DNA from: Methylophilus sp. Leaf416
GTDB lineage: Bacteria > Pseudomonadota > Gammaproteobacteria > Burkholderiales > Methylophilaceae
DNA: 64,000 nt
Direction of reading: 5' to 3'
Assembly: GCF_001424665.1 (NCBI RefSeq)
Contig: NZ_LMQS01000002.1
Span: forward strand, 248,001-312,000
Within the stretch, counting starts at the first letter, position 1. Every line of letters starts with the position of its first letter. Position numbers and translations under genes: made by a program. Below the pieces are notes generated by a model that ran no database searches, had not been told where the DNA came from, and saw nothing but the letters and a program-made list of their open reading frames with translations. Of this stretch, positions 32,350-38,301 are shown in pieces.

Positions 32350-32466
32350 CTTTATTCTCCGGTGTTTATACACAATTAAAGTCCTATGGTACGTGATTAA
32401 GGCTTGCAGGTGAATGCCAGTACTTAATGCGGAACACTGAAGTCAGCCTTCGGCATTTTGGTTACA

Positions 32467-33210
32467 ATGCCTGACATGAGCAATTTAAGATTTTATAGCC
32501 CTAGCCAGCTGACCATCGGTGTGACCGCTGCACTGAGTGAAAATGCAGCGGCACATGCTACGCGTGTGATGCGTTTAAAAGTGGGGGATACACTCACTTT
32601 GTTTTGTGGCGACGGCGTTGATTACCAATGTGCGCTGGTGAGTGTGGAAAAGAAAACTGCCAGTGTAGAAGTACTCAGCCAGGAAAAAATCAACAATGAA
32701 TCGCCACTCAATATGCGGCTGTTACAGGGGATTTCCAGCGGCGATCGTATGGACTACACCATCCAGAAGGCAGTTGAGCTTGGGGTGACTGAAATCTTCC
32801 CGTTAAGCACAGAACGTAGTGTCACCAAGCTGAGCGGCGACCGCGCCGAGAAACGGGTCGAGCATTGGCAAGGCGTGGCGATAGCTGCTTGCGAACAAAG
32901 CGGGCGCGCAGTGTTACCTAAAATTCATTTTCCGCTTACTCTGGCGCAATGGCTGAGCCAGCACGATACCCAGCAAAGCCTGAATTTGTTGCTCAACCCG
33001 GTTGCGGCAAAAACTTTGGCCCAATTAACAAAACCGGAAAACCGGATTCATCTCCTGATTGGTCCTGAAGGTGGCTTAAGCCCTGGCGAGATTGAGCTAG
33101 CCAACCACAATAACTTTCAATCGATAGTGCTGGGGCCAAGAATCTTGCGCACCGAAACTGCGGCCCTGACTGCAATTTCCAGCATGCAAACGCTTTGGGG
33201 TGACTTTTAG
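32467..33210 (+). CDS. rsmE: 16S rRNA (uracil-1498-N3) methyltransferase
   Basis: 247 residues from the ATG at 32467 (MPDMSNLRFYSPSQL); the ATG three codons later is equally possible. SPOUT-class knotted methyltransferase: N-terminal PUA-like domain and C-terminal SAM site with LLIGPEGGLSPGEIELA and LGPRILRTETAALTA. Methylates U1498 at the decoding centre of 16S rRNA. Confidence 0.95.
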   Translation: MPDMSNLRFYSPSQLTIGVTAALSENAAAHATRVMRLKVGDTLTLFCGDGVDYQCALVSVEKKTASVEVLSQEKINNESPLNMRLLQGISSGDRMDYTIQKAVELGVTEIFPLSTERSVTKLSGDRAEKRVEHWQGVAIAACEQSGRAVLPKIHFPLTLAQWLSQHDTQQSLNLLLNPVAAKTLAQLTKPENRIHLLIGPEGGLSPGEIELANHNNFQSIVLGPRILRTETAALTAISSMQTLWGDF

Positions 33211-34316: not shown

Positions 34317-35489
34317 ATGCCAAAAACTACTTTTAATCATTTTATCGAACGCCCGCCCTCGCCGCCGGAGACTTTGGTCAGGTTACTGGATGAAACTGGC
34401 ATTACGATCAATGGCAACGCCCCATGGGATGTGCAGGTTTATGATGAAACCGTCTATCGAGATGTGCTGACCCGCGGCACGCTAGGGTTTGGACAGGCGT
34501 ATATTGAAGGCCGCTGGGATTGCCCCCGCCTGGATGAGTTTTTCACCCGTGTGATGCGCGCGGATATTGATGAAGAACTGGGCGGATGGGGCAAGCTGCA
34601 ACTGCTGGGCGATATTCTGCGCCATACACTCTTCAACCTGCAGGCACCAAACCGCGCTTTCCAGGTCGCGCAACACCATTACGATATTGGCAACGATGTA
34701 TTCGAAGCGATGCTGGATTCCAGCATGAGTTACTCGTGCGCCTATTGGGAACATGCGCAGACGCTGGAAGAAGCGCAGACGCACAAACTGGATATGATTT
34801 GCCGCAAACTGGACTTACAACCCGGAGAACGTGTACTTGAAATTGGCTGTGGCTGGGGCGGCCTTGCCAAACATATGGCACAGCACTACGGCGTAGAAGT
34901 GCTCGGCATTACCGTATCAGTAGAGCAGCAAACCATAGCCAAAGAACGCTGCGCAGGATTACCTGTCGAGATCCGCTTGCAGGATTACCGGGAGCTGGAA
35001 GGGCAATTCGACAAGATTGTTTCCGTAGGTATGTTTGAACACGTAGGCCCGAAAAATTACCCGGTTTATTTTGAAACCGTGCATCGTTTATTAAATGATA
35101 ACGGGCTGTTTTTGCTGCACACTATTGGCAATCACAAAACTGCGCTGTATACCGATGCCTGGATAGATCGTTATATTTTCCCCAATGGAAAACTGCCTTC
35201 CGCCGTCGAAATAAGCAGCGCGATTGAGAAGAAATTCCTGATTGAAGACTGGCATAATTTCGGCCCCGACTATGACCGCACACTGATGGCCTGGTGGGAT
35301 AAATTCAGCCGAGCCTGGCCTGAATTACAGTTTAAATATGACGAGAGTTTTTACCGCATGTGGAAATACTACCTGATGTGTTGCGCAGGTTATTTCCGTT
35401 CGCGGCAGGGTCAACTATGGCAACTGATATTGAGCAAGCGGCAAAGTAACCGTATTTACCGCTCGGTACGTCCCGGCACTACAAGTTGA
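34317..35489 (+). CDS. cfa: Cyclopropane-fatty-acyl-phospholipid synthase
   Basis: 390 residues. Adds a methylene group from S-adenosylmethionine across the double bond of membrane phospholipid acyl chains. Visible: an N-terminal lipid-binding part, HHYDIGNDVFEAMLDSSMSY with the conserved SYSCAYW, SAM motif VLEIGCGWGGLAKHMA, and FEHVGPKNYPVYF. The usual length for the family. GGAGGAG precedes the start. Confidence 0.96.
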   Translation: MPKTTFNHFIERPPSPPETLVRLLDETGITINGNAPWDVQVYDETVYRDVLTRGTLGFGQAYIEGRWDCPRLDEFFTRVMRADIDEELGGWGKLQLLGDILRHTLFNLQAPNRAFQVAQHHYDIGNDVFEAMLDSSMSYSCAYWEHAQTLEEAQTHKLDMICRKLDLQPGERVLEIGCGWGGLAKHMAQHYGVEVLGITVSVEQQTIAKERCAGLPVEIRLQDYRELEGQFDKIVSVGMFEHVGPKNYPVYFETVHRLLNDNGLFLLHTIGNHKTALYTDAWIDRYIFPNGKLPSAVEISSAIEKKFLIEDWHNFGPDYDRTLMAWWDKFSRAWPELQFKYDESFYRMWKYYLMCCAGYFRSRQGQLWQLILSKRQSNRIYRSVRPGTTS

Positions 35490-35561
35490 TGTAACCATGG
35501 TGCCTCCTCCTGACATATTTAACATGACGACCAGTAAGTAGCACCAGCCGAATTTTTATGT

Positions 35562-35612
35562 TTAATTTGCATAAAAATCTATATTGATTTATTGTTTTGC
35601 AAATTAATATAG
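35562..35612. promoter_or_regulatory. Nested inverted repeats upstream of the HTH-NAGS gene
   Basis: TTAATTTGC (35562-35570) pairs with GCAAATTAA (35599-35607), and inside/overlapping it CTATATT (35579-35585) pairs with AATATAG (35606-35612). The last arm is 12 nt before the start codon. The AT-rich symmetric layout suits a repressor operator, and the downstream protein itself has an N-terminal helix-turn-helix. Confidence 0.5.
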
Positions 35613-35624
35613 AAAATTCAACAA

Positions 35625-37196
35625 ATGCTCGGCTCAAACATCAGAAATTTGCGAAAATCGCAAAATCTAACATTGCAGCAACTGGCTTCCCGCATGGGTA
35701 CTGATACCAGCAATCTGTCGCGGATAGAGCGCGGCGAAATCGGCATATCTGAAGCATTGTTACGTGCTGCTGCCCAGGCATTAAGCACGACGCCTGGCCG
35801 TTTATACGATGCCGATTTAACGCCGAGCAACCTGACCAATACGCCACCGGCTATCCTCTCCAGCGCCAACAGCAAAGACTTTGTACACTGGTTCCGCTCA
35901 GCAGCGCCGTATATCCATGCTTTTGGTGGCAGCACCTTTGTCATAGCGTTCGGCGGCGAAGTGGTCAGTGAACAACAGTTCGTTGCGCTATCCCATGATT
36001 TGAACCTACTGGCTAGCCTGGAAGTCAGGCTGGTGTTGGTGCATGGCGCACGGCCACAAATTGAGCATAGGTTAAAACGCGATCATCTCATCCCCAAAAT
36101 GCACAACGGCTTACGTATTACCGACGACACCGCAATGGAAGCGGTGAAAGAAGCCAATGGCACGGTGCGGGTAGAGATCGAATCACTGCTGTCGATGGGC
36201 ATCAGCAACTCACCCATGGCAGGTAGCGATATCCGCGTCGCCAGCGGTAACTTTGTCACCGCTAAACCATTGGGTGTGCGTGATGGCGTAGACCTGCAAC
36301 ATACCGGCGAAGTACGCAAGATAGATGCAATAGGTATCCAGAAACGGCTGGATGACGGTGAACTGGTGTTGCTTTCCCCTATGGGTTATTCGCCTACCGG
36401 AGAAATATTCAACCTGACGCTGGAAGATGTAGCAGTGAGCGCCGCTATCGCACTCGATGCGGAAAAACTGATTTTCCTGATGGGTTCTGAGGGCATACAT
36501 AACTTGCGCGGCGAATTACTGCGCGAGATGACTTCGGCCAAAGCGAAGAACCTACTGCGCAATGTGCAGGAAAGCGATGAGCCGATCAATTTTTCCGAAG
36601 ATGTAAATTATTACCTGCCTGCGGCAGTGCGTGCCTGTGAGCATGGTGTTGCCAGAACGCACCTGATTTCACGCCATATTGACGGTGCCATTATCCAGGA
36701 GCTGTTTACCCGCAAGGGCATAGGCACCATGATCACCGAGCTACCGCTGGAAACCATGCGTCAGGCCAATATTGATGATGTCGGTGGAATTTTAATGCTG
36801 ATTGAGCCACTGGAAAATGAAGGCATTCTGGTACGGCGCGGGCGAGAACGGATTGAAATGGAAATCAACTATTTCTACGTAATGGAACACGATAACCGCG
36901 TAATTGGTTGTGCCGCCTTGTACCCTTTCCCCGCCGAGAAAATGGTCGAATTCGCCTGCCTGGCGATTGATCCCGCTTATCGCGGTGGTGGACGCGGTGA
37001 CAAACTGTTTAACTATTGCCAGGAACAGGCAAAAGCCATGGGTAATACAGCGTTGTTTTGCCTGACGACACGCACAGAGCACTGGTTTCTGGAGCGTGGA
37101 TTTACTGAACAAAGTGTCGATCAACTGCCGCAAGAAAAGCAGCAGCTTTATAATCTGCAGCGGAAATCCAAAGTATTTGTGAAAGTGCTGACCTAG
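35625..37196 (+). CDS. argA: N-acetylglutamate synthase with N-terminal XRE-type HTH domain
   Basis: 523 residues in one uninterrupted frame. Residues about 4-60 form a Cro/C1-type helix-turn-helix (IRNLRKSQNLTLQQLASRMG; SRIERGEIGIS). From about residue 84 (KDFVHWFRSAAPYIHAFGG) to the end is a full ArgA of about 440 residues, the E. coli size: an amino-acid-kinase-like domain (FVIAFGGEVV; LVLVHGARPQI) to about 365, then a GNAT acetyltransferase (EFACLAIDPAYRGGGRGDKL). ArgA makes N-acetylglutamate, the first step of arginine synthesis, and is arginine-inhibited. The HTH addition suggests a DNA-binding, possibly self-regulating enzyme. argB follows. Confidence 0.9.
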   Translation: MLGSNIRNLRKSQNLTLQQLASRMGTDTSNLSRIERGEIGISEALLRAAAQALSTTPGRLYDADLTPSNLTNTPPAILSSANSKDFVHWFRSAAPYIHAFGGSTFVIAFGGEVVSEQQFVALSHDLNLLASLEVRLVLVHGARPQIEHRLKRDHLIPKMHNGLRITDDTAMEAVKEANGTVRVEIESLLSMGISNSPMAGSDIRVASGNFVTAKPLGVRDGVDLQHTGEVRKIDAIGIQKRLDDGELVLLSPMGYSPTGEIFNLTLEDVAVSAAIALDAEKLIFLMGSEGIHNLRGELLREMTSAKAKNLLRNVQESDEPINFSEDVNYYLPAAVRACEHGVARTHLISRHIDGAIIQELFTRKGIGTMITELPLETMRQANIDDVGGILMLIEPLENEGILVRRGRERIEMEINYFYVMEHDNRVIGCAALYPFPAEKMVEFACLAIDPAYRGGGRGDKLFNYCQEQAKAMGNTALFCLTTRTEHWFLERGFTEQSVDQLPQEKQQLYNLQRKSKVFVKVLT

Positions 37197-37221
37197 CCGT
37201 TACTTTCAAGATAATCTAACT

Positions 37222-37255
37222 AAAAATGGCTGATGTACGCGTCAGCCATTTTTTT
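37222..37255 (+). terminator. Terminator between argA and argB
   Basis: AAAAATGGCTGA (37222-37233) pairs with TCAGCCATTTTT (37242-37253), 8-nt loop, T-run. It makes separate argA and argB transcripts likely. Confidence 0.88.
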
Positions 37256-37407
37256 GCCTGCAAATAAACGCTTGCTGTCATTATTTATTACTGAAAAATC
37301 TGAACAAAGTCTGCAAAACCATTTCTTATTGAACATCTTCAGTAAAATTCACGCACAGTCATTCACTGTTTAACCCTCAGCAGATAGAATACACATATCC
37401 TTAATAG

Positions 37408-38301
<894 letters not shown>

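Follow-up and report, generated by a model that had tools for sequence, protein, structure and literature searches.

Proteins that join an XRE-type helix-turn-helix (HTH) to an enzyme or enzyme-like domain include NadR, whose HTH is N-terminal, and regulators of the BzdR/BoxR type, in which the HTH precedes an enzyme-like part that is regarded as a sensor. NadR, PutA, BirA and PepA of E. coli are trigger enzymes, i.e. metabolic enzymes that also bind DNA, and PutA represses only its own gene and putP, as described in PMC8249747, so that a very small regulon is normal for such a protein. Classical N-acetylglutamate synthase (NAGS), or ArgA, which catalyzes the first step of arginine synthesis, has no HTH. 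It forms a hexamer through its amino-acid-kinase-like (AAK) domains; the N-terminal helices of neighboring subunits are interlaced, and arginine binding moves those helices, with an axial contraction of about 20 Å and a ring widening of about 10 Å, according to a NAGS review (PMC4490483) whose main text contains neither the word "helix-turn-helix" nor the word "DNA". The same job that we propose below, end-product control of arginine genes, is done by ArgR/AhrC, an unrelated protein family; a study of proteobacterial regulons (PMC5343134) describes ArgR, among others, as conserved across many groups of gammaproteobacteria and missing from other classes.

Trigger enzymes are thus a known kind, of which the HTH-ArgA fusion described here is a new variant. 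Compared with PutA, NadR, BirA and PepA, the enzyme concerned belongs to arginine synthesis; this ArgA is by homology a hexamer, is presumably inhibited by its end product like its relatives, and occurs in a lineage without ArgR above our search cut-off. Like the BzdR/BoxR type it has an XRE HTH before the enzyme domain, but in this case the enzyme domain appears to be complete, and no second NAGS was found in the genome. It shares with classical NAGS (Neisseria gonorrhoeae, 2r8v; PMC4490483) the AAK and GNAT order, the motif of the arginine site and two key residues, Lys and Glu, and differs in carrying an HTH. Searches of one open-access literature collection listed no recognizable title on an HTH-ArgA fusion or on arginine control in Methylophilaceae.

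The window, by which we mean the whole 64-kb stretch of Methylophilus DNA that was analyzed, encoded at 35625-37193 a single 523-residue protein in which a Cro/C1 (XRE) HTH is joined by a short linker to a complete ArgA, with the following features.

35625..37196, + strand: argA, HTH-AAK-GNAT fusion, 523 aa plus stop (open frame, predicted start ATG at 35625, profile matches)
35625..35807, + strand: XRE helix-turn-helix, residues 1-61 (Pfam HTH_31 and HTH_3; AlphaFold helices; near-invariant NLSRIERG)
within 35625..35807, + strand: predicted recognition helix, residues 28-35 (AlphaFold model)
35808..35870, + strand: variable linker, residues 62-82 (mean entropy 2.59 bits)
35871..36743, + strand: amino-acid-kinase-like arginine-sensing domain, residues 83-373 (Pfam, NCBIfam, 2r8v relative, conserved residues)
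within 35871..36743, + strand: arginine motif ELFTRKGIGT, residues 359-368 (motif from PMC4490483)
36750..37193, + strand: GNAT acetyltransferase domain, residues 376-523 (Pfam; NAGS structure relative)

The initial annotation had read one open frame with an HTH, a linker and a complete ArgA, joined by a clean junction. Pfam, NCBIfam and AlphaFold bore out this architecture, and no stop was present between the HTH and ArgA parts. The Pfam matches, all above the curated cut-offs, were HTH_31 at residues 2-57 (40.2 bits, cut-off 27), HTH_3 at residues 6-57 (38.8 bits, cut-off 23), AA_kinase at residues 104-349 (91.6 bits) and Acetyltransf_7 at residues 415-495 (48.4 bits), and the DNA-binding domain of ArgR (PF01316) was not among the Pfam domains of the protein. 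In NCBIfam, residues 81-521 matched NF003641, amino-acid N-acetyltransferase, with 685.5 bits (cut-off 344), the ArgA model TIGR01890 scored 576.4 bits (cut-off 202.85), and NF006015, a shikimate-kinase-like family of the BzdR/BoxR type, matched weakly. The best solved relative by sequence was the N. gonorrhoeae NAGS 2r8v (E 2.4e-89), and a PDB fold search with the AlphaFold model likewise placed NAGS on top. This model, built on a 15-row alignment, had an overall mean pLDDT of 56.7 and was mostly of low confidence outside the HTH, for which alone we used it; residues 1-60 reached mean values of 76-88 per ten-residue block, and the helices at 2-12, 17-24, 28-35, 43-52 and 57-60 followed the XRE pattern. 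The 2.94-Mb genome contained one NAGS, the other match (30% identity) being located at the argB place directly downstream. The fusion protein is therefore most likely the cell's N-acetylglutamate synthase, with an enzyme part predicted to be complete.

The order HTH-AAK-GNAT, which had been put forward as something to look for in other genomes, was found throughout the family, whose members live on methanol. The ArgA protein matched 144 of 150 Methylophilaceae genomes at E 1e-40 or better, and the match reached the HTH in 142 of these 144, meaning that the matching piece began at query residue 1-6; this count includes genome G071, which has one stop in its N-part. In genome G007 the match was given from residue 67, and the HTH was present after re-alignment. 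The fusion recurred in ten Methylophilus records at 88-95% identity, the nearest named record being Methylophilus rhizosphaerae (95%), and the HTH was retained in genera of the family with 1.2-1.4 Mb genomes. Such family-wide conservation ruled out a sequencing artefact or a lone oddity. Two family loci, L089 of genome G033 with unknown bases and a scrambled HTH part and L090 of G071 with its stop in the HTH part, showed either an assembly fault or a loss. A sample of the order gave a match in 281 of 300 genomes, and among the matches listed all those from outside the family began at residue 50 or later. With residues 1-176 as query, 278 of 369 genomes of a class sample matched, and among the matches listed none from outside the family began before residue 39; the one beginning there spanned two stops. 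As the HTH is present in the family and missing from the listed matches outside it, the fusion looks, on these sequence comparisons, like one old event within Methylophilaceae.

No ArgR scored above the cut-off in any of the 150 family genomes or the 300 order genomes (2 and 6 of them, respectively, had weak partial matches below it), in a search that was positive for 9 of 14 control genomes. The idea that the fusion substitutes for an ArgR lost in Methylophilaceae was unsupported as stated, because ArgR was missing above the cut-off from the whole order sample.

To evaluate conservation, we used 56 family loci, a subset of the 144 matching family genomes. L089 and L090 were left out of the leader motif counts, giving 54 leaders; L048, which has a short leader, was also left out of the protein entropy set (53 proteins), and L048 and L043 were left out of the paired-site count (52 leaders), although the removal of L043 was unnecessary. 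In the 53 proteins, mean entropy was 0.39 bits at residues 27-38, compared with 1.08 for the whole HTH, 0.57 for AAK and 0.82 for GNAT, so that the recognition residues were the best-kept part of the HTH. The predicted recognition helix, the presence of which had been at issue, was found, with N30, L31, S32, I34, E35 and G37 invariant and R33 and R36 nearly so. The linker, counted to residue 86, was most commonly 24 residues long (24/53) and ranged from 6 to 51, and the arginine-site motif E-(L/I)-(F/M)-(T/S)-X-X-G-X-G-T (ELFTRKGIGT in the window's protein) and the key Lys and Glu (K281 and E359) were kept in 53/53 proteins.

The argA leaders of the family carried paired 19-bp palindromes of the form WTTTG[C/T]-N7-[A/G]CAAAW, mostly 29-31 bp apart, a spacing of about 30 bp that corresponds to about three helical turns. 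A symmetric 19-position EM motif, seeded from our reading of the leaders, had a log-likelihood of 494.6 in the 54 family leaders versus 26.8-81.2 in ten shuffled sets begun from the identical seed. The regular expression TTGY-N7-RCAA matched 24 times in these leaders versus 0.39 expected, and twice in 22 leaders from other families versus 0.24 expected. With every offset between 19 and 60 allowed for the best pair, both sites scored at least 9 bits in 35 of 52 leaders and, with the same matrix, in 0.0 per shuffled set; among those 35 leaders the offset was 30 in 16, 31 in 6, 29 in 4, 32 in 1 and another value in 8. The leaders in which sites were counted had also served to train the operator matrix, and the independent evidence comes from the shuffles, the codon analyses and the untrained genomes of R1, a sequence-only twin-operator model built from twelve leaders. 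In an R1 scan of 20 genomes, argA was the best match in 19, with E 1.6e-5 or better in 18, which included 8 of the 10 untrained genomes; the match in G077 had E 1.3e-3, and the argA leader of G006, without a clear twin operator, reached only E 0.25.

The fifth position of the operator varied with residues 28-29 of the protein, i.e. with the start of the predicted recognition helix. Loci with AG at these residues had T in 16 cases and C in 2, those with AS or SG had C in 22 and T in none, and those with PG had C in three cases and T in one (44 of 54 loci typed, 10 untypable). Shared descent by itself could account for some of this covariation, in which the recognition helix and its putative sites appear to have changed together.

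In Methylophilus, the predicted sites were arranged differently, as shown by the following sites of the window.

35556..35574, no strand: upstream predicted operator TTATGTTTAATTTGCATAA (14.3 bits; second best of the window)
35565..35583, no strand: overlapping upstream site ATTTGCATAAAAATCTATA (8.9 bits; at -60, the place used by other Methylophilus species)
35595..35613, no strand: weak half-site TTTTGCAAATTAATATAGA, matching in its left half only (1.7 bits; 68th best of the window)
35647..35665, no strand: intragenic predicted operator ATTTGCGAAAATCGCAAAA, codons 8-14 (16.9 bits; best of the 64-kb window)

The half-site at 35595-35613 is located 30 bp downstream of the site at 35565-35583, and in the upstream sites of Methylophilus generally the left halves were kept 30 bp apart and the right halves were weak. 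From these scores, the twin pattern is weak in the genome of the window and the intragenic site is strong. The region 35562-35612, suggested earlier for a DNA-binding experiment, overlaps the upstream sites at 35556-35574 and 35565-35583, but the strongest site, at 35647-35665, lies beyond it in coding sequence. A promoter scan of 35300-37420 found 3 promoters versus 3.1 expected, with none between 35300 and the start of argA. Upstream in the window, permease-like and cyclopropane-fatty-acid-synthase-like genes (named by eye) occupy the region up to 35489 between argA and an RsmE-like gene at 32458-33210; elsewhere in the family, an RsmE-like frame seems, again by eye, to run right up to argA in many leaders.

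The palindrome TTTGCG-N5-CGCAAA was present at +22, in codons 8-14, in 16/16 Methylophilus argA genes read, with ATTGCG as the left half in two of them. Codons 9 (TTG), 11 (AAA), 12 (TCG) and 13 (CAA) were identical in all 16 genes, whereas the fraction of identical codons averaged 0.55 across the 389 invariant residues, and for silent conservation the codon windows at codons 8 and 9 ranked first of 316. The exact palindrome occurred in 18 of 22 genomes of the genus and at argA in 14. As it had 24 places in these 22 genomes versus 20 for the reversed control, only its recurrence at argA is telling.

A second recurrent site was located at metW. R1 half-model matches with E < 1 were observed at the metW start, behind metX, in 15 of 20 genomes. 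A first set of 14 of these loci was selected by the R1 match itself. A second set comprised the 30 nearest relatives by protein similarity, from two genera, with a site-bearing metW as query. The palindrome AATGTAAANATTACAAAT was present in the first metW codons of 28 of these 30 loci (L229-L258; the locus of the window's own genome is L259). Its Val codon was GTA in 27/28 loci versus 127/456 elsewhere in these genes, its Thr codon was ACA in 28/28 versus 95/360 elsewhere, and the element was retained while the spacing to the next conserved protein motif shifted by whole codons. We had suspected a chance product of coding, which is unlikely given this silent codon conservation. The element thus appears to be a constraint on the DNA, to which ArgA may bind. 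In a further draw, the corresponding place scored >14 in three of seven Methylophilus metW loci and less in the remaining four, and the other 13 loci had no clear site there, the gene start being unmatched in L270 and L278. Another metW palindrome, at the FAIIAN codons, scored up to 18.8 bits; it was not silently conserved and was treated as a coding coincidence.

The initial annotation had described a possible trigger enzyme that switches its own or other arginine genes. The paired leader palindromes, the intragenic site and the covariation are strong comparative evidence for the part of this proposal that concerns argA itself. The part concerning other arginine genes found no support in the sequences scanned: within the window the operator matrix found nothing above 4.7 bits in the argB leader, and the recurrent second site was in metW. 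A broad arginine regulon was similarly unsupported, as only three places in the 64-kb window scored at least 9 bits, two of them at argA and the third at 9.1.

As in the described trigger enzymes, a predicted catalytic enzyme and a predicted DNA-binding domain are combined in one chain, and conserved putative sites are found at the target gene. We consider it likely that ArgA is an autogenous trigger enzyme, being both N-acetylglutamate synthase and repressor of its own gene, and we infer that the HTH binds these sites, represses the gene by doing so and takes arginine as its signal. In this model, the XRE domains of an ArgA hexamer would form pairs that recognize the 19-bp palindrome TTTG[C/T]-N7-[A/G]CAAA. 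The family leader has two palindromes, 29-31 bp or about three helical turns apart, and the simplest arrangement would be a hexamer whose HTH pairs contact palindromes on one face of the DNA, as set by arginine; in Methylophilus the upstream pair would have decayed, and the strong site is the one in codons 8-14. The HTH is joined just before a helix at residues 81-99 (AlphaFold, of low confidence there). As this position directly precedes the N-terminal helix that moves on arginine binding in the classical enzyme, arginine should alter HTH pairing and hence DNA affinity; acetyl-CoA or glutamate occupancy would perhaps do so as well, and the likeliest sign would be repression at plentiful arginine.

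Only tentatively do we suggest a fuller version, in which an arginine-gated ArgA hexamer would govern a small regulon joining two acetyl-CoA-using pathways, repressing argA through twin operators (in Methylophilus, through its own HTH codons), acting on metXW through an operator in the first metW codons, doing the work of ArgR, and having had its helix specificity switched from TTTGT to TTTGC along with its sites. Should the trigger-enzyme reading hold, an arginine-pathway enzyme that senses the end product would also be a transcription factor throughout a family that includes very small genomes, in an order whose sampled genomes had no standard arginine repressor above the cut-off. This would provide concrete candidate DNA sites, some of them predicted operators embedded in genes, and a natural series of apparently joint changes in operator and recognition helix, with a possible bearing on amino-acid production in Methylophilus.

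These observations could also be explained if another, unlinked transcription factor bound the palindromes and controlled argA and metW, with the ArgA HTH having some other role or other targets. The conserved site of the same type at metW, which is not an arginine gene, in two genera is in keeping with this, but argA leaders of HTH-less genes hardly carry the motif (2 matches in 22 leaders versus 24 in 54) and the operator base varies in step with recognition-helix residues of ArgA itself. XRE repressors, moreover, commonly recognize palindromes of this sort in their own promoters, which further counts against an unlinked factor, and we regard this explanation as rather improbable. A relic HTH, or one that serves as a protein-contact module without DNA binding next to palindromes of unrelated cause, would suit the highly variable linker and the damaged N-parts of G071 (a stop) and G033 (unknown bases, scrambled). 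This is very hard to reconcile with recognition residues that are the best kept of the HTH, with the persistence of the HTH in very small genomes and with the covariation of operator base and helix residues, and we give it almost no weight.

Returning to ArgA as the protein bound at these sites, the sign of control might be opposite to the one proposed, with ArgA as an activator or with arginine releasing it from DNA. Sites were found both upstream of and inside the gene, and their geometry leaves the sign unfixed. Sites that lie close to the start codon or beyond it, as the intragenic one of Methylophilus does, nevertheless fit repression better, and arginine genes are usually repressed by the end product, which also counts against an opposite sign; we find it quite unlikely.

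Single palindromes were evaluated against reversed controls. TTTGTA-N5-TACAAA had 10 places versus 12 for the reversed control in 15 genomes, and TTTGC-N7-GCAAA had 23 places versus 5 in the window's own genome, where argA and four others of the 23 were inspected. As reversed controls were about as frequent for some patterns and TTTGC-N7-GCAAA was in excess, a perfect site alone is not proof; the same excess may leave room for further targets. Single sites were located inside unrelated frames at L110, L114, L115, L119, L159/L160, L177, L178, L180, L187, L188 and L189, of which L189 scored 13.3 bits and L160 16.5 bits although both are within other frames. At L176, in the window's own genome, a single site was located between two long frames, and the sites at L116, L166 and L179 had an ambiguous setting. 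At about 1501-1549 of L111, in one genome (G117), a perfect TTTGTA-N5-TACAAA was observed about 32 bases before an ammonium-transporter-like frame.
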